DNA from: Candidatus Poseidoniales archaeon
GTDB lineage: Archaea > Thermoplasmatota > Poseidoniia > Poseidoniales > Poseidoniaceae
DNA length: 36,340 bases
Direction: 5' to 3'
Assembly (NCBI GenBank): GCA_028283345.1
Contig: JAPOGE010000012.1
Coordinates: 1 to 36,340 of the forward strand
Shown here: piece by piece, positions 673 through 23,885 of the stretch
How positions within the stretch are numbered: the stretch's first letter is position 1
How the letters are laid out: each line of letters opens with the position of its first letter
Position numbers and translations under genes: made by a program
The notes under the pieces: model-generated
What the model was told of the DNA's origin: nothing
The model's database searches: none
Seen by the model: the letters and a program-made list of their open reading frames with translations, nothing else

Positions 673-2334
<1,662 letters not shown>

Positions 2335-2346
2335 TGATATCACTCC

Positions 2347-2616
2347 TTAAGCAAGCACCTTGGCCTGCAGGTCCTCTTCCTTTATGAGCAGGTACTCGAC
2401 GCCCATCCACTCAATCTCGCTGCCGCTGTAGTTGCGGTAGATGACTCTGTCACCCGCGGCCACGTGCTCGGCCTCAGGGCCGACGGCCACGATTTTTCCG
2501 ACGTTCATTTTCTCTCGCGCTTCCTCGGGAAGCAGCAATCCTGATTGCGTCTTCTCAGCGGCTTTCTCCAGTTCGACCAGCACCATAGATGCCAGTGGTT
2601 CTATTCCTATAGTCAT
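2347..2616 (-). CDS. groES: Co-chaperonin GroES (Hsp10)
   Basis: This 89-residue protein is the lid of the GroEL chamber. It shows the GroES pattern: an N-terminal strand IEPLASMVLVELE, the mobile loop KTQSGLLLPEEAREK, then NVGKIVAVGP, GDRVIYRNYSGSEIE and a C-terminal YLLIKEEDLQAKV. It is slightly shorter than E. coli GroES (97 residues). AAGGTGAT lies a few bases before the ATG. It is the first gene of a two-gene groES-groEL operon, the usual bacterial order. The only promoter-like signal upstream is the TATA box near 2701-2707. Confidence 0.96.
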   Translation of the reverse strand: MTIGIEPLASMVLVELEKAAEKTQSGLLLPEEAREKMNVGKIVAVGPEAEHVAAGDRVIYRNYSGSEIEWMGVEYLLIKEEDLQAKVLA

Positions 2617-2698
2617 CGCATTATCACCTTATATTCTCATGTTAAGTCAAGTCGGCAATCCAAGCCCACTAGTTAACCGAGGGTTGCATAGTACAACC

Positions 2699-2712
2699 TG
2701 TATATAAGGCCA
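2699..2712 (-). promoter_or_regulatory. TATA-type promoter of groES-groEL
   Basis: On the minus strand the sequence CCTTATATACA forms a good archaeal TATA box about 85 bases before the groES ATG. That predicts a leader of roughly 60 nt containing a Shine-Dalgarno site, unlike the leaderless-looking genes elsewhere in the window. Confidence 0.6.
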
Positions 2713-2842
2713 TTTTTTTCGCAGATACACGTCTTGGCCGAACCATCGAGTGAATGGGGAGGAATCCCCCCTGCCAACTTCGTGCAGCAGACCCCCGTCG
2801 GTAGAAGCATCATATGGGCTGGTTCAGCGCAGGAGCACGTCG

Positions 2843-3147
2843 ATGAACGCTGTTGCTGCCTCCCGCTGGGACCTCAAAGCGGTCTCTGAACGTCTTCCCG
2901 TGGTCATCATACTGACCACCTTACTGCTAATCGGCATCCAGGATTCCGCGACCTGACGTTGTGGCGCAATTACTGCTTCGCGGGTGCGACCATGTTCTTG
3001 ATTCTCGGCGCAATCGTCTGGGACGGTCGCCACATGATTCCGCGCACGGCCTTCTGGCTGGGATATCTCGGCTATCTGCTACACTTCGTCGGTGGCAGTT
3101 TCGGTGAGGACGACTGGCAACCTTACGAAGAACAGGTATCAAAGTAA
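2843..3147 (+). pseudogene. Small membrane-protein gene broken by a frameshift
   Basis: An ATG at 2843 with AGGAG seven bases upstream opens a frame encoding a hydrophobic segment (LPVVIILTTLLLIGI) that stops at 2956. The next frame then continues as FRDLTLWRNYCFAGATMF and reads through two more hydrophobic segments to a stop at 3147. Joined, the two halves make a plausible roughly 100-residue, three-span membrane protein, so a single-base frameshift near 2935-2955 is likely, either a real mutation or a sequence error. The last 14 codons (GEDDWQPYEE..) belong to a 73-bp repeat shared with the end of the acidic-protein gene at 33.3 kb. Family unknown. Confidence 0.5.
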
Positions 3148-3175
3148 GATAGGCAGCAACTGCAGACTTACGCAG
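3103..3175 (+). repeat. Dispersed 73-bp repeat, copy 1
   Basis: By my alignment, 66 of 73 bases match positions 33254-33326 without gaps. The repeat covers the last codons of the open frame (encoding EDDWQPYEE) and about 45 bases beyond the point where the other copy has its stop codon. Copy 1 has CAG where copy 2 has TAG, so this frame runs four codons longer. It ends in CTGCAGACTTACGCAG. Confidence 0.9.
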
Positions 3176-3255
3176 TGAGTACCCTCTACTCAGATCCGCA
3201 ATCGGCCATTATTGGACAGATGATACAGGCAGTATCTAGTTAGTAGCAGCCTCAT

Positions 3256-5136
3256 TCAGTGATTCAGCCTGCGGCGACCAACCAGAGCGGCGCCGAACAG
3301 TGCCGCGGCGGCGATGAATCCGGTGAACCCCGGGAATCCCTCCGACAACCTCGGCTCTGGCGTAGTGTCGACGCGTTCGCTGGGCGAGTCTGTTGCGGCA
3401 AAACCATCATCAAAGACACTGACGTACACCGTGTCTGAACTGACTTCAGGGTCGTGGATGATGTCCTCAGCGACTGGATAGTTGAAGCCGCCGATTAAGC
3501 GAACTCCACGATAACGATCGGTGCTGTTGTCAGGCAAATCCACCTGTGTGACGTTGCGACGGCCATGTATCTGATAGACGACTTCAAAGTCCATCTCCTC
3601 ACCCTCTTCGCGCACAGTGACGTTGTTGACCCATCGCAACCGGGCAAACTCTGCACCACTGTCCTCAAAGTATAGACCGCCGCCACGAATCGCCGTGGCA
3701 CGCCTGACAGCGTCGTCCTTCAACTCTCCGTGGTCAGCGCAGTAACCCGTGACCCGGTCATACCGGTTATCCACAGCGTCGAGTAATCGCTCCTTTCGAC
3801 TCTTGTTCGCCTTGTCGTCATCGGCGATGCTGCCAGTCGTATCTCCCGACCGTGACTTGGATTCCTTGTTCGCATCATCCTCTTCATCTTCAGCCTGAAC
3901 CTGATTTTCAGGCTTCATTACTTCCTTGGCTTGCTCTTCGCGCTGCAAGAATTCAGAGGGAGTCATCTTCACGCGCTCGCCCGACGTACCAACCTCCGTG
4001 ATCTTTCCCTCCTCACAGACGTTCAACCAGCCCTCGGTGTCGTACGTCGCTCCGACTGGGTCATCACTTATTTTCCGCTTGGCATGGCCGATGACCGCCT
4101 CCGGGTCAATCGCGTTTTCGAAATTAATCCGCATCCACTCGGCGACTCTCTCATCTATTCGGGTGGCGGTCGCAACCTCGGTGACCGAGAACAGTCGGCT
4201 GTCGTTTCCATCTAGGGTGTCGTTGATTGCGACACCGTCCCAACCTCTGATTCTCATATCGTATTTCCAAGTCGTTTTGAGCACGTGTCCCGTGACATCT
4301 GAGGAGGCAATCTTTCGGCTCTCCTTGACGGTTATCTCATCGTCTGCACCACGTTCAACTTCCACTCTGTAGTGAGGCATACTCTCAATATCGATGACCT
4401 CTTCTCTGGTTGTTCCGTAGAAGGTGATCTCGACCGCGTCCAACTTGGAGGTGTTGTCGCTCATCGTTCCCGCTCTGACAGCTTCGTAAGTGATGTTCTC
4501 AGCTACCAAGGTAAAGGAGAGGCTACGGTTTCGCGAGTCCGTGTCGGAAGTGTTGTCCCAATCACGCAGCGACCATTCCGCGTTCCTGAGGTCAACATAC
4601 TTGTACACCTCCTCATGAGTCATCGCCGCATCGTTGAGAATCTCATTCAGGGAACCTGCCTTGCCGTTTGAAATGACTCCGAACATGCCGTCTGAATCCT
4701 GGTCGGCGTACTCGATAATACCAGGGAATTCCGTCCGGAATAACTTCTCGACGGGGATGCCGATTCGGCCTTCAAACTCGCCGTTAACGTTGTAGATATC
4801 AGCCACGCCGAGGTAGCGCCTTTGAATGCTCACCAACTCAACCGCGCCATTCAAGGAATCATCGCCCCAGCGGACGCTGAATTCATCATCTCCTACTTTG
4901 ATGGAGACCCGCGACTTGTTGTCGGGTTCTCTGATTACTCGAATGTCCTGTTCGCGGTAGTCGATACGCTCGTTGCCGAGAATATCATCGTTGTCGTCAG
5001 AACCAGAGTTGGATGTTGACTCATCTGTTGGAGTTGCTGCTGCCATGGTTGAGGTCAATAGTATGGTGAGGGTGACGAGGAAGAACATTCTTGAGCGGGT
5101 GTTGCGGAAGTTTAACTCTGCTCTCTTAGAAAACAT
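3256..5136 (-). CDS. Secreted surface protein with PGF-CTERM anchor
   Basis: This 626-residue protein has an N-terminal signal peptide (basic start, then FFLVTLTILLTSTMAAA around residues 19-34) and a C-terminal tripartite PGF-CTERM-like tail: PGF, a short hydrophobic helix (FIAAAALFGAALV) and RRR. In archaea such tails are processed by an archaeosortase and replaced with a lipid anchor; that is family knowledge. The body is acidic and rich in Asp and Ser, with several N-x-S/T sequons (NDT, NRS, NVT, NST) suited to N-glycosylation. A low-complexity acidic linker lies around residues 405-450. I recognise no catalytic domain. It is single-standing, with a TATA box about 17-25 bases before the ATG, implying a leaderless transcript. 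Likely a cell-envelope protein. Confidence 0.85.
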   Translation of the reverse strand: MFSKRAELNFRNTRSRMFFLVTLTILLTSTMAAATPTDESTSNSGSDDNDDILGNERIDYREQDIRVIREPDNKSRVSIKVGDDEFSVRWGDDSLNGAVELVSIQRRYLGVADIYNVNGEFEGRIGIPVEKLFRTEFPGIIEYADQDSDGMFGVISNGKAGSLNEILNDAAMTHEEVYKYVDLRNAEWSLRDWDNTSDTDSRNRSLSFTLVAENITYEAVRAGTMSDNTSKLDAVEITFYGTTREEVIDIESMPHYRVEVERGADDEITVKESRKIASSDVTGHVLKTTWKYDMRIRGWDGVAINDTLDGNDSRLFSVTEVATATRIDERVAEWMRINFENAIDPEAVIGHAKRKISDDPVGATYDTEGWLNVCEEGKITEVGTSGERVKMTPSEFLQREEQAKEVMKPENQVQAEDEEDDANKESKSRSGDTTGSIADDDKANKSRKERLLDAVDNRYDRVTGYCADHGELKDDAVRRATAIRGGGLYFEDSGAEFARLRWVNNVTVREEGEEMDFEVVYQIHGRRNVTQVDLPDNSTDRYRGVRLIGGFNYPVAEDIIHDPEVSSDTVYVSVFDDGFAATDSPSERVDTTPEPRLSEGFPGFTGFIAAAALFGAALVGRRRLNH

Positions 5137-19448: not shown

Positions 19449-19548
19449 GCAGTCATTGCGGTCACCCCCTTGAGACGCCCGAAGAAATCGTCTGACCGAC
19501 AAACTATCGCCGGTTGCTTTCAAGACATGAGAACCTCTCGTGACCTCC

Positions 19549-20697
19549 ATGCCTAGAAGGGTCCTGGTCGCTCGTGGCGGGGCGATTTCCTCGCTTTCCG
19601 GACTCGGTCGGGCGCACCATGACCTTGTGCTACACCTTCGTCACGGGGATATCAATGGCTGGGAACTGGCTGGAGAAATTGACCATATGACCGGCGGTTC
19701 ACCACTGCGCCGTCTGTGGCGACGTTGGCGTTCCCACCCCCGAAAGGTTGCAAGGCGAGTGTCTGAACTCGCCGCTTCCGGTCAAGCTGACCTGCTGCAC
19801 ATCAGCGATCAGGAGCAAGCGATACTTGTGCCACATAATTCACTGATTCCTGTAGCGGTGACGGTTCACGACCTATTCCACCTCGACCCTCAGATAATCG
19901 AGAGCCCAGAGGGAAAAATCACAGTAGGCGAGCAAAATCCCGGTCGAGTGCGCAAACGTGACCTTGAGAAGATTCGCGCTGGGCTAGGGCGCGCTGACCT
20001 GTTGATATGTGACAGCCGAACCACCCAAGAGCACGCTGAGAGGCTGTTTCCCGATAGTCGTACCATCGTTGTCCCCCTCGGCATTGATACTACGGCACGT
20101 AATCCACATCTGAGTCCTCAACCGCGTCCAGAATCATTACCCAGTGACCACCTCAACCTATTGATTATCGGTAGTGAGGAGCCGCGCAAACGACTGCTAT
20201 TCGCCATCGACGTAATCAGCGCCTTGGGTGAAGATATCCGTGGCGATGTAATTCTACACAAGGTCGGTGCTGAATCCGACAGCATACCAAGCCGACGCCT
20301 GCAATCGCAATCGGCGCGCGCCGGCGTCGAAATGAATTGGCTGGGGGCGGTCAGCGAGGTTGAGTTAATCGCTCTTGAACAACATGCTGATGCCCTGTTA
20401 TTCCCATCGGTCGCCGAAGGTTTTGGTTATCCTCCCTTGGAGGCGATGGCGGCAGGTTGCCCGGTATTGATGTCCGATTTGGGTTCACACAATGAATTAG
20501 CAATCCCGGGAACCCCCCTGCCCCCGTTCGAGAAATCAGCCTGGATCGAGGTGATTTCCACTCTTCACAAAGTTTGGGTCAGCAGGAATAAATCGCCACG
20601 CAGTGCCGATACTGCCGGAATTGAGCGGGCGGTGGGATTCTCTCAGAAAAAATTCGTTCAGCGTTTGCGATCTGCTTATGAAACCCTATTTACTTGA
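19549..20697 (+). CDS. GT4-family glycosyltransferase
   Basis: A 382-residue GT-B glycosyltransferase. The donor-binding half shows LLIIGSEEPRKRLLFAIDVI and the E-x7-E motif EGFGYPPLEAMAAGCPVLMSD, typical of the mannosyltransferase-like GT4 group. The acceptor half has LLHISDQEQ and ICDSRTTQEHAERLF. I start at the ATG at 19549; an in-frame GTG lies three codons earlier. It follows gmd in the same direction after about 200 bases and may use the GDP-deoxysugar made there, though this is inference. It lies directly upstream of the ubiquitin-like operon, but a 90-base gap containing a small hairpin (CCCTT..AAGGG near 20727) separates them. Confidence 0.9.
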   Translation: MPRRVLVARGGAISSLSGLGRAHHDLVLHLRHGDINGWELAGEIDHMTGGSPLRRLWRRWRSHPRKVARRVSELAASGQADLLHISDQEQAILVPHNSLIPVAVTVHDLFHLDPQIIESPEGKITVGEQNPGRVRKRDLEKIRAGLGRADLLICDSRTTQEHAERLFPDSRTIVVPLGIDTTARNPHLSPQPRPESLPSDHLNLLIIGSEEPRKRLLFAIDVISALGEDIRGDVILHKVGAESDSIPSRRLQSQSARAGVEMNWLGAVSEVELIALEQHADALLFPSVAEGFGYPPLEAMAAGCPVLMSDLGSHNELAIPGTPLPPFEKSAWIEVISTLHKVWVSRNKSPRSADTAGIERAVGFSQKKFVQRLRSAYETLFT

Positions 20698-20787: not shown

Positions 20788-22062
20788 ATGGAAACGAAAA
20801 ATAAAACCCAAAAACAAACTCAAACCAGCACCCAAACCAGCAACTCGGTCATCACCCCTGTCGCCACTGCGACCACCGCCTCGTCCGCAATCTCGACTAG
20901 CGATATGGCTACCACGACCGTATTGGTAGCCAATCACACCGGTCATGATACCCTTCAACTAACCAAACAAGAGACCATTTCGATGGTCGAAGAACAAAGT
21001 AATAGTTGGGTCTTTGCCGATGGGCGTATGCTCGATGCCGCAGGACTGGGTGAGGCTGATTGGAATGCCATCGGCACCGTTCAGTTGGTACCCGGTCTGG
21101 TCGGTGGCGATGATGAGATTCGTGTGGCGGTGCAGATCGCTAACCATACCGGCCACAGCACCGTGTTGATGACCCAGTCCGAAGCGGTGGCAAAGGCTAC
21201 AGTTACTGCTAATTCCTGGCTTTTCATCAATGGTCAGATGGTCGATACTGCGGGACTGGCCACAGCTGATTGGGCGCAGGTGAAAACGGTGCAGATAATG
21301 CCGCAATTAATCGGCGGGGCGCATGGTGAGTCGCAGAATCTACTCATCGTCGGCGCCGGCGGCATCGGCTCAACTCTGCTCGACTTACTCGCCCCGGCGG
21401 CAAGCCGATGCAACCTCAACTGTCGAATCACGATGATGGATGATGACCTTGTCGAAGCCAACAACCTCGGCCATCAGCGGTTCGGTAATTCCGAGATTGG
21501 TATGCTCAAGGTCGACGCCTTGGCGCAGCGCCACAATACGTGTCCCGGCATCGAAGTAGTGGCGCGCGGTGAAGCATTGCGCAAAGCCGATCAATTGGCT
21601 GAATATGACGTGGTCGTGGTCGCAGTCGATCGGCCTGAGCCACGTGCACTGGTTCACAATAGTGACAAGCCTTGGCTCGACCTTCGTTGCCGTGGTGATG
21701 GCTGGATGTTGCTCGACAGCAATACCGATTCCACCATCATTTCACAACTCTCACCACCACATGAGCCGACCTCCTGCCAACTTGAGGGGGCACTCGAAGC
21801 CGGCAATATCGAATTCGGATTTGCCGCGGTAGCCGCTGCCGGGGCACAATGGTTGCTGCAACACCTGCGTCTGGTAGAAGGCGCAACGACGACCACGCCG
21901 ATGGCGCAGATGAACTCACTCACAATGGGGCCATTGCCACTTCCAGAACCAACCGCAGAGAGCCCATCGGGGCAAACTGGCGGGCAATCTTCGACGAGGT
22001 CAGAATCATCCTCGCAATCATCTTCATCCCCGACCTCGCAATCATCAGAGGTGAGTGCATGA
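20788..22062 (+). CDS. Tandem ubiquitin-like domains fused to an E1/ThiF adenylyltransferase
   Basis: A 424-residue protein in four parts. Residues 1-40 are a Thr/Gln/Ser-rich disordered leader. Two ubiquitin-like domains follow (about 42-107 and 111-177), about 45% identical to each other and each ending in Gly-Gly. Residues 183-365 form an E1/ThiF domain: ATP loop VGAGGIGS (188-195), MDDDLVEANNLGHQRF with the metal-binding acidic cluster, the GMLKVDAL lysine, VVVVAVDRP, and Cys330 in a setting like the catalytic cysteine of MoeB. The usual Arg of NLxRQ is His, and the structural CxxC zinc pairs are missing. Residues 366-424 are a Ser-rich tail. The next gene, a JAMM protease, overlaps its stop codon. 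Predicted role: adenylate and thioester-activate the released ubiquitin-like modules. TAGGA lies upstream of the ATG. Confidence 0.87.
   Translation: METKNKTQKQTQTSTQTSNSVITPVATATTASSAISTSDMATTTVLVANHTGHDTLQLTKQETISMVEEQSNSWVFADGRMLDAAGLGEADWNAIGTVQLVPGLVGGDDEIRVAVQIANHTGHSTVLMTQSEAVAKATVTANSWLFINGQMVDTAGLATADWAQVKTVQIMPQLIGGAHGESQNLLIVGAGGIGSTLLDLLAPAASRCNLNCRITMMDDDLVEANNLGHQRFGNSEIGMLKVDALAQRHNTCPGIEVVARGEALRKADQLAEYDVVVVAVDRPEPRALVHNSDKPWLDLRCRGDGWMLLDSNTDSTIISQLSPPHEPTSCQLEGALEAGNIEFGFAAVAAAGAQWLLQHLRLVEGATTTTPMAQMNSLTMGPLPLPEPTAESPSGQTGGQSSTRSESSSQSSSSPTSQSSEVSA
20911..21108 (+). other. Ubiquitin-like domain 1, ending in Gly106-Gly107
   Basis: Residues 42-107 follow the ubiquitin fold order: a first hairpin VLVANHTGHDTLQLT aligning with ubiquitin's first hairpin (shared Thr-Gly turn), a helix (KQETISMVEEQ), then VFADGRMLD... 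to VQLVPGLVGG. From VFADG to the final GG is 33 residues, exactly the ubiquitin distance from IFAGK to LRLRGG. The central loop is about ten residues shorter than in ubiquitin. Asp-Asp-Glu follows the Gly-Gly. Confidence 0.78.
21118..21318 (+). other. Ubiquitin-like domain 2, ending in Gly176-Gly177
   Basis: Residues 111-177 repeat domain 1 with about 45% identity (shared ANHTGH, NSW.F..G.M.D.AGL..ADW and TVQ..P...GG). It ends in IMPQLIGG and is joined to the E1 domain by only a short linker beginning AHGES. No lysine occurs between the Trp-Leu-Phe strand and position 166, so chain-type conjugation through a ubiquitin-like Lys48 site is not obvious. Confidence 0.78.
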
Positions 22063-22574
22063 AGGACGAGGTCAACACTGCCTTGGAACTCATTGAAGGA
22101 GGAAAGGCTGACGATACGACGGCGATAATTACTGAGTTGGCAAGCCGCGGTCAATGGGATGTGGTTTACTTGTTATCAGTTACTGCTGGGCGAGAACTGA
22201 GTGTACTATTCGATGCTGAAAACACTGTCCACGTCGATTGGGGAGGACCTGGATTGGTTCCCCTCCACCCGCCGCTGGGGATTTCCATTCCCTTCCGACT
22301 CTGGGTCCATACTCACCCGCACGGTTATGCGTACTGGTCGCAGACCGACCGCCAGAGCATTGCTCAAGGGACGATGATTCTCGAGCAGGCACAGGTACTC
22401 GGCGGCAATGGCATTCTCTCCACCACCCGACTGGAGCATCCGAGTCTGCTGGGAAGACTTGCCGATAGCGGGCCGCTCGCTCGCTGGACCGAAGAACAGG
22501 TATTGCCCTGGGAAGAATGGCAACTGCGCAAACAGAGCAACTCCTGCAAGGCAATTACCGAGGTGAGTGCTTGA
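22059..22574 (+). CDS. JAB/JAMM metalloprotease of the ubiquitin-like operon
   Basis: A 171-residue zinc peptidase of the Mpn/JAB family. The JAMM signature is intact: His84-Thr-His86, seven residues, Ser94, two residues, Asp97 (HTHPHGYAYWSQTD). Glu46 in GRELSVLF is the likely catalytic acid. JAMM enzymes cleave after the Gly-Gly of ubiquitin-like proteins, either to mature precursors or to remove conjugates. Its ATG overlaps the stop of the upstream E1 fusion (ATGA) and is preceded by GAGGTGAGTGC. Its own stop overlaps the next start in the same way, so all three genes appear coupled. The expected substrates are the two Gly-Gly junctions in the neighbouring fusion protein. Confidence 0.88.
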   Translation: MKDEVNTALELIEGGKADDTTAIITELASRGQWDVVYLLSVTAGRELSVLFDAENTVHVDWGGPGLVPLHPPLGISIPFRLWVHTHPHGYAYWSQTDRQSIAQGTMILEQAQVLGGNGILSTTRLEHPSLLGRLADSGPLARWTEEQVLPWEEWQLRKQSNSCKAITEVSA

Positions 22575-22816
22575 GAGACTGGATAGCCCGCCAACCTGAA
22601 GATGAGGACGAGCGCAACAAAATCCGCATGGCCATTGCCATGGGTGCCGGAATCAGTGTGGCAGAATTTCTCAACCGCCTGCTCGGCCATGAGCCCGATG
22701 CTTCATTGGTCGAGTCCGTGACGATGAAACTCGAGCAGGCGAAGGACGATGAAGAGCCGGTAGATATCGAAGCCTACGTCAAACAACTCACCGACTGGCA
22801 GAGCAAACTCGCCTGA
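22571..22816 (+). CDS. Small helical protein of the ubiquitin-like operon, unknown function
   Basis: An 81-residue protein if it starts at the TTG at 22571. I choose this start because it overlaps the JAMM gene stop (TTGA) and is preceded by the same GAGGTGAGTGC that precedes the JAMM start; an in-frame ATG at 22517 would overlap by 58 bases and lacks a site. The sequence is acidic and predicted mostly helical (KIRMAIAMGAGISVAEFLNRLL, VESVTMKLEQAKDD, IEAYVKQLTDWQSKLA). With the TTG start it contains no cysteine, so it cannot be a thioester-forming E2. It could be an adaptor, a substrate or an inhibitor. I do not recognise a family. Confidence 0.72.
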   Translation: MRDWIARQPEDEDERNKIRMAIAMGAGISVAEFLNRLLGHEPDASLVESVTMKLEQAKDDEEPVDIEAYVKQLTDWQSKLA

Positions 22817-22877: not shown

Positions 22878-23885
22878 TCATCTGGCAAGCGGTAAGTGCT
22901 TGATTGGCGGAGCAATCCCGAGGTCTTCAGGGAAATCCATTATTTTCTCAGGTATAGGGAGTGGGATTTTCTCTCGCCCGATCAGAGCGACCCGACTGGG
23001 ACGAGAATCATCGAGTAAGCGGCGGTCGACCAATGGGGCGAGGGTATTGGCGAATTCGAGAACATCATCGTGGCTCGGCATATTCTCCAGCGACATGACC
23101 TCCCGGCTATGACCGACGAAGACATAACCCTTGCACTCGATCCAATCCGGGTCGGCACGGTTGTCCAGTGCGGCATATTGGGCGAGATGTTCGGGATTCA
23201 TATTTTCACCCTTCACCAAGGTGTGACGGCAGACTATTCGGGTGTCCAGACTGGGTAGAAGGTCGATGGTCTGCTCAAATTTATCCCACGCCCCCGAGCC
23301 CCACTTAGGTTTGCAGATTCGGTTGAAGACCTCCTCATTGGGGGCGTCGACACTGACGTAGAGTTGGGTCGGCAAGACATCGAGGTTCTCGATTGCCTTG
23401 GGCAGGGTGCCATTGGTGACCAGCATCGTCGTCATCCCATGCTTATGACACAAGTCGATGTATTCGGATAGATTTCGGTACAGTGTCGGCTCTCCGTTAA
23501 GCGAAATGGCGACGTGCTTAGGATTCTGCGCCTCGATGAACTTTTCTGGGTTGACTTCGATGTTTCCACCATATCCGGTTAGCAGGCGACGCTGGGCGCG
23601 CACGCTCTCATAAAGAAGTTCAAGTGGGTCTTGGTCGGTCAATTCAAGACTGTCCATATGTGGTTCTCGCCAGCAATAGGTACACGCCAGATTACATTGG
23701 TCGACCACCGGCGACATCTGTAGGCATTCGTGGCTGGCGATACCGTAGAACTTTCCTTTGTAGCACGAGCGGTCACGCAGAAGGCTCTCTCTGGTCCAGT
23801 GACATATTTTGACACCGCCGTGCTCTCCGACGAGGTGATAGCGCTGCTTCTGCAACTTTGCCTTCAGTTGCGGATCCATTCCCAT
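22878..23885 (-). CDS. taw1: 4-demethylwyosine synthase, archaeal Taw1/TYW1
   Basis: A 335-residue radical SAM enzyme that builds the tricyclic base of wyosine at position 37 of tRNA-Phe from N1-methylguanosine and pyruvate. The SAM cluster motif CNLACTYC (Cys64, 68, 71) is intact. Cys28, 41 and 54 have the 13-residue spacing of the second iron-sulfur cluster of archaeal TYW1. Further family marks are VAISLNGEPTLY, LVTNGTLP and LYVSVDAP. This enzyme is confined to archaea and eukaryotes, so it is the best single sign that the window is archaeal. It converges on the ubiquitin-like operon. About 190 bases upstream, to the end of the phosphate transporter gene, show no credible gene. Confidence 0.95.
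   Translation of the reverse strand: MGMDPQLKAKLQKQRYHLVGEHGGVKICHWTRESLLRDRSCYKGKFYGIASHECLQMSPVVDQCNLACTYCWREPHMDSLELTDQDPLELLYESVRAQRRLLTGYGGNIEVNPEKFIEAQNPKHVAISLNGEPTLYRNLSEYIDLCHKHGMTTMLVTNGTLPKAIENLDVLPTQLYVSVDAPNEEVFNRICKPKWGSGAWDKFEQTIDLLPSLDTRIVCRHTLVKGENMNPEHLAQYAALDNRADPDWIECKGYVFVGHSREVMSLENMPSHDDVLEFANTLAPLVDRRLLDDSRPSRVALIGREKIPLPIPEKIMDFPEDLGIAPPIKHLPLAR

Follow-up and report, generated by a model that had tools for sequence, protein, structure and literature searches.

Two ubiquitin-like repeats fused to an E1-like domain and coupled to a JAMM protease gene in a Poseidoniales archaeon: likely part of a ubiquitin-type conjugation system

The window analysed here is a stretch of 36,340 nt of contig JAPOGE010000012.1 (assembly GCA_028283345.1) from a Candidatus Poseidoniales archaeon (marine group II). 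The source genome, termed G000, comprises 2.1 Mb in 201 contigs, and Euryarchaeota archaeon UBA60, a member of Candidatus Poseidoniales according to NCBI, is a close relative. Three overlapping genes are carried by the forward strand. The first (20788-22062) encodes a 424-aa protein composed of a low-complexity N-terminus, two ubiquitin (Ub)-like repeats, A and B, a ThiF/E1 domain and a Ser-rich tail. The two repeats and the ThiF domain are thus read from a single ORF, and the modifier precursor and the activating enzyme are one protein, as an earlier note on this DNA had proposed. The second gene (22059-22574) encodes a JAMM metalloprotease of 171 aa and overlaps the stop of the fused gene by an ATGA at 22059, again as described before. 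The third, small gene (22571-22816, 81 aa) overlaps the JAMM gene by a TTGA. An identical 11-base leader, GAGGTGAGTGC, precedes both starts, giving the coupling elements GAGGTGAGTGC + ATGA between the fused gene and the JAMM gene (22048-22062) and GAGGTGAGTGC + TTGA between the JAMM gene and the small gene (22560-22574). A glycosyltransferase-like gene recognized by eye upstream of the fused gene (19540-20697) and a radical-SAM gene downstream of the cassette were judged to lie outside the system. The radical-SAM gene (22878-23885, CxxxCxxC) converges on the cassette and is found at the same position in the three other fused-gene loci; its product presumably resembles TYW1/Taw1 of wybutosine synthesis, judging by eye.

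The two Ub-like repeats are each of about 70 aa and were found where the earlier note had located them, closed by Gly-Gly at residues 107 and 177. Repeat A spans residues 42-107 (20911-21108) and ends in VPGLVGG (101-107), and repeat B spans residues 108-177 (21109-21318) and ends in MPQLIGG (171-177). Repeat B is included in our alignments A2 and A7, with a Ub profile domain match of 9.2e-28. To compare the repeats with known structures, a profile was built from an alignment of 20 homologous repeats (A2) and used to search the PDB. It retrieved ubiquitin with the Gly-Gly of the repeats aligned on that of ubiquitin, and among the best 60 chains shown nearly all were ubiquitin or ubiquitin-derived. 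E-values against single-ubiquitin chains were 0.02-0.2, the lower values reached with polyubiquitin being a sum over repeats. Repeat A was modelled by AlphaFold as E-E-H-E-H-E with a pLDDT of 89, and its best Foldseek matches were ISG15, SUMO, ubiquitin and other Ubls (E of 9e-3 or above, TM about 0.5). The structure prediction that the earlier note had called for thus gives repeat A a ubiquitin-type beta-grasp fold. With this predicted fold and a C-terminal Gly-Gly, the repeats qualify as ubiquitin-like beta-grasp modifiers, individual E-values being modest.

The Gly-Gly was also found to be retained in relatives, family-wide among modifier homologues, with Ala-Gly in a few (L058 822-1061, L066 4352-4792 and L067 4701-5285), and both fused repeats keep it in 4/4 fused sequences. 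When the fused repeats were compared with those of L005, from the same genus, dN was about 0.06 and dS 0.22-0.30, with a dN/dS of about 0.27 for repeat B; these sequence comparisons are consistent with purifying selection. Neither of the two outcomes that the note had named as refuting its proposal, a fold other than beta-grasp or loss of the Gly-Gly in relatives, was thus observed. Since no Lys or Arg shortly precedes the Gly-Gly of the repeats, trypsin is unsuited to a Gly-Gly remnant test; the remnants would be of about 29 residues for repeat A and 11 for repeat B.

A Pfam profile search of each part of the cassette, also suggested earlier, was successful for the ThiF domain only: no Pfam family matches either repeat singly, and the JAMM protein remained below the family cut-off. 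The E1-like domain (residues 182-393, 21331-21966) lies in the same chain as the repeats, as the note had said, and matches PF00899 over residues 182-381 (E 1.5e-17, 64 bits for a curated cut-off of 28.1). It keeps GxGGIG (189-194) and the Asp/Asn residues, and conserved columns were defined over 31 homologous stretches, in 94 percent of which Cys330, in PTSCQLEG, is conserved. The position of this residue is compatible with that of the catalytic Cys of ThiF/Uba4. Neither a rhodanese domain nor a conserved CxxC pair was detected in the E1 domain. The top NCBIfam model was PRTRC_ThiF (TIGR03736), with an E-value of 9e-15 and 54.6 bits for a cut-off of 144.75. The JAMM protein carries the motif Glu46, His84-x-His86, Ser94-x2-Asp97, which 27 homologues keep without exception; because the Pfam Prok-JAB score (E 0.0017, 18.6 bits) is below the cut-off of 25, the class is assigned by motif only. 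The small protein had no family match. It is probably helical, carries a R-x-P-x-D-[DE]-x-E motif and is conserved directly 3' of the JAMM gene in 22 loci. The coupling of its gene, claimed previously, was borne out at TTG 22571. The start proposed at 22517 (99 aa) was not, because the region conserved in the 22 homologues begins near 22571, which is most likely the true start from these alignments.

We then looked at the distribution of the cassette. Among 78 genomes including G000, an E1 of the window type, scored as present for E below 1e-30, was found in 34. The neighbourhood survey proposed in the note revealed that the E1-JAMM-small gene order is conserved across relatives and that the modifier is mostly separate from the E1, encoded elsewhere in the genome. 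Separate modifiers comprise between one and three repeats in the loci that were read, and up to four on one contig from the phylum search. Most solo Poseidoniales modifiers have one or more further residues after the Gly-Gly and therefore need processing. The Ub-Ub-E1 fusion was found in four genomes (G000, G001, G005 and G014), with the orthologues of the window gene at loci L039/L005, L037 and L038; the E1 tree does not settle how the window sequence is related to the other fused pair. At least three of these four genomes (G000, G001 and G005) hold a solo modifier as well. The earlier note had regarded the locus as self-contained. G000 argues against this, since it has a solo modifier on contig C197, a second E1-JAMM-small cassette on C8, with an E1 44 percent identical to that of the window, and three E2-like proteins. 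Other fusions link the parts in other ways: E1 and JAMM are joined at L057 and L061, and in G004 (L050 5762-6859) a Ub-like domain is N-terminal to a divergent E2-like region with Gly-Gly at the junction. Among the sampled Thermoplasmatota, the modifier was detected in 37/293 genomes and the E2-like domain in 32/243, each in only two Poseidoniales families.

The E2-like proteins came from clustering of the cassette neighbours, which grouped Poseidoniales proteins with a common C-terminal domain bearing ICIH and LPLGD motifs, many of them with an N-terminal CxxC..CxxC zinc ribbon. In the sister genome, one such gene immediately precedes the fused gene (L039 3386-5071; also L005), and others lie beside the cassette in L037, L038, L045, L046, L047 and L056. 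The three proteins of G000 (C188, C124 and C111) have an intact Cys. Across 29 aligned sequences, no substitution is seen at G45, C78, D90 and D102. For structure modelling, the input excluded the entire row of one locus whose sequence contains ambiguous bases. The model obtained (pLDDT 89.5, pTM 0.80) comprises a helix, four strands, the Cys and three helices (H-EEEE-Cys-HHH), and this predicted topology is that of an E2. In Foldseek, Rad6 came first and E2s made up 26 of the 31 best PDB chains (E 0.06-0.9, TM about 0.4). At the sequence level, an hmmsearch of the PDB with the E2-like profiles A1 and A3 gave no significant E2 match, and hhalign found no connection to four canonical E2s. An E2-like protein is present in 33/34 genomes with the E1 and in 1/44 without it (p = 1e-19; p = 7e-5 when collapsed by genus), and in the mixed genera 8, 13, 15 and 16 both are present or absent together. 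The sole E1 genome without a match is G004, where the divergent copy fused to Ub has a full-sequence E-value of 2e-6 in a reduced search. Altogether, the model and its best matches make the neighbour family a probable E2, termed E2-like here, and it represents a candidate new E2 family that Pfam models do not recognize. An ORF preceding the second cassette (L035 1-465), a suspected further member, is not included in the family, its E-value with the profile being only 3.5. A RING-type E3 (zf-RING_2) was not found above cut-off in 58 of the 59 genomes searched. The previous statement that no E2 or E3 lies nearby consequently holds for the window, but not for the genome or the loci of relatives, where E2-like proteins are encoded.

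Some E2-like genes are found in particular arrangements. On contig C124 of G000 (L079 288-1925 / 1852-3315) and at L087 in G001, the two genomes of the genus, the 5' end of an E2-like gene is overlapped by a gene for an AAA ATPase, and a link to an unfoldase is possible. At L111 (2188-2733) and L112 (1439-1990), a Cys-less E2-like copy is beside an intact one, a pairing that resembles that of UEV proteins with Ubc13 in eukaryotes.

The likely explanation, in our opinion, is that the window holds the E1, modifier and protease end of a conjugation system of the Ub/E1/E2/JAMM type in Poseidoniales, in which the JAMM protein frees the modifier from the fusion. The fused polypeptide and the JAMM protease would be co-produced through translational coupling. 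The protease would cut after Gly107 and Gly177, yielding two modifiers with an exposed Gly-Gly and an E1 remainder, a processing like that of polyubiquitin and ubiquitin-ribosomal fusions. The E1 would then adenylate the modifier C-terminus and form a thioester on the conserved Cys330, from which the modifier would pass to the invariant Cys of an E2-like protein encoded elsewhere in the genome, the remaining parts of the E2-like proteins choosing the substrates. The JAMM protease may also remove the modifier from substrates for recycling, and the small protein may be an adaptor. Cleavage, thioester steps, conjugation and every function are inferred here, from gene structure, coupling, motifs, co-occurrence and fusions that are observed and from the predicted folds of repeat A and of the E2-like domain. 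Such a cleavage is described for the JAMM protein Rpn11 of Caldiarchaeum, which cuts the Ub precursor after the Gly-Gly and linear Ub fusions too (PMC6043591). Points against this explanation are the modest Foldseek values and missing sequence match of the E2-like family, the lack of an E2 gene beside the cassette of the window, the Ala-Gly ends of some modifiers and the near absence of RING-type E3s. More tentatively, Poseidoniales may have evolved a Ub system of their own, with mono-, poly- and E1-fused modifier precursors and an enlarged E2 family confined to the order, one protein acting as E2 and E3; many of its members would combine the N-terminal zinc ribbon with a long variable region that picks substrates.

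Alternatively, the repeats could stay attached to the E1 as fixed regulatory or docking domains while the solo modifier, encoded on C197 in G000, is the one conjugated. The linker between repeat B and the E1 core is of just a few residues, a solo modifier accompanies the fusion in at least three of the four genomes, and some bacteria have a ThiS-ThiF fusion with a second solo ThiS-like protein in the operon (PMC1779556). However, docking domains would not need the Gly-Gly kept at both repeat ends in all four sequences, and the JAMM gene is coupled to the fused gene itself, which makes this alternative rather unlikely. It is still harder to see in the cassette an anti-virus defence system of the Bil, Bub or CBASS-associated kind, an explanation that we consider improbable. 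The cassette is patchily distributed within genera, its composition is reminiscent of bacterial defence operons that combine Ub, E1, E2 and JAMM, and three relatives have a gene for a phage-type RNA polymerase upstream. On the other hand, the PADLOC matches do not extend beyond the ThiF portion of E1-E2 models, and many cassette, E2-like and modifier loci are surrounded by housekeeping genes in an order common to relatives, unlike a defence island.

Two further explanations were considered. The earlier note favoured an E2-free mode, placed between sulfur-carrier and true conjugation systems, in which E1 and modifier suffice as in SAMP/Urm1. The window indeed lacks an E2 gene, and its E1 has the minimal ThiF form found in sulfur-carrier and SAMP systems. 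We rejected this mode, to which we give very little credence, because of the E2-like family: 33 of the 34 E1-bearing genomes have it, G000 in three copies, and in the sister genome one of its genes immediately precedes the fused gene. Moreover, the E1 reaches 36.9 bits with the UbaA model for a cut-off of 450. In the least probable scenario, the modifier would be a sulfur carrier turned into a thiocarboxylate for tRNA or cofactor synthesis, in line with the ThiF homology and the ThiS-ThiF fusion precedents. The E1, however, is devoid of a rhodanese domain and of a CxxC pair, the modifiers are in tandem, and the partners are JAMM and E2-like proteins. Relatives also encode another E1, of the MoeB/UbaA type (in G011 complete and with a rhodanese domain; in G000 a weaker match on C201), and therefore sulfur transfer is served elsewhere. 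An intermediate position between sulfur carrier and conjugation is unlikely for the same reasons.

Among archaea, Caldiarchaeum has a characterized complete ubiquitin-like system, and a few further lineages are known to contain one. For marine group II, a survey of 2014 listed no more than scattered genes of the ubiquitin system, from one single-cell genome (PMC4327156). The operon of Caldiarchaeum (Ub, E1, E2, small RING and Rpn11; PMC5654768 and PMC6043591) likewise has an archaeal Ub-fold modifier with Gly-Gly and a C-terminal extension, an E1, an E2 and a JAMM protein. It differs by its separate genes and its canonical E2 and RING, whereas Poseidoniales have a divergent E2-like family with a zinc ribbon, almost no RING and tandem or E1-fused modifiers. 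The parts list itself was already known, since bacterial operons comprising Ub, JAB, E1, E2-like and helical proteins (type 6d), polyUbl operons (6e) and Ub-ThiF fusions were reported by Iyer and colleagues (PMC1779556). Type 6d and the PRTRC cassette of bacterial plasmids (Ub-like protein, JAB, E1, E2-like and alpha-helical protein; PMC1779556) are alike in composition, and the nearest plasmid matches of the window E1 include PRTRC ThiF genes (hhalign probability 98 percent). In contrast, the PRTRC cassette's Ub, E2 and helical proteins have no detectable relation to those of Poseidoniales, its JAMM is at most weakly related, and the PRTRC protein C examined has no Gly-Gly end, while the Poseidoniales system is chromosomal and archaeal, lacks ParB/PRTRC proteins and has E1-fused repeats. 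Membership in PRTRC was rejected on these missing partners and on the TIGR03736 cut-off, and membership in SAMP/UbaA on the UbaA equivalog score. Bacterial type 6e polyUbl operons/BilABCD share tandem Ub domains, E1 and JAB/JAMM, and type 6e also a Ub fused to an E2-like domain, but the E2-like domain of 6e is inactive and the JAB is fused to the E1, whereas in Poseidoniales Ub is N-terminal to the E1 and the E2-like domain keeps its Cys. ThiS-ThiF fusions, as in Campylobacter, also have a Ub-like domain N-terminal to the E1 and a second solo modifier; there, however, the domain is single and in a sulfur-carrier context, unlike the two Gly-Gly-ended repeats with JAMM and E2-like partners. In the open-licence papers searched, we found no description of this lineage, of the E2-like family, of two Gly-Gly-ended Ubs fused to an E1 or of the near absence of detectable RING. 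The Poseidoniales system recurs in many genera of an abundant ocean group, and its modifier, E1, E2-like protein and protease are fused in differing pairs (Ub-E1, Ub-E2-like and E1-JAMM), which opens the assembly of multi-step ubiquitin cascades to direct test.

Two other genes were repeatedly encountered in the surroundings of these loci. A T7-like single-subunit RNA polymerase gene, with no match in G000, precedes the cassette-associated E2-like gene in three genomes of Poseidoniales (L039 21-2294 in G001, L038 3-2042 in G014 and L047 307-4149 in G023) and is also found on G025:C9; the L039 protein matches PF00940 (E 6.7e-58), its nearest phage enzymes being only about 25 percent identical. 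Finally, a protein of about 250 aa with a weak MarR-like match adjoins solo modifiers in some genomes and follows the E1-JAMM-small cassette in others (L036 4473-5246, L071 3423-4190, L070 3342-4055, L049 6916-7608 and L052 3930-4673), and could possibly be a further component or a regulator.
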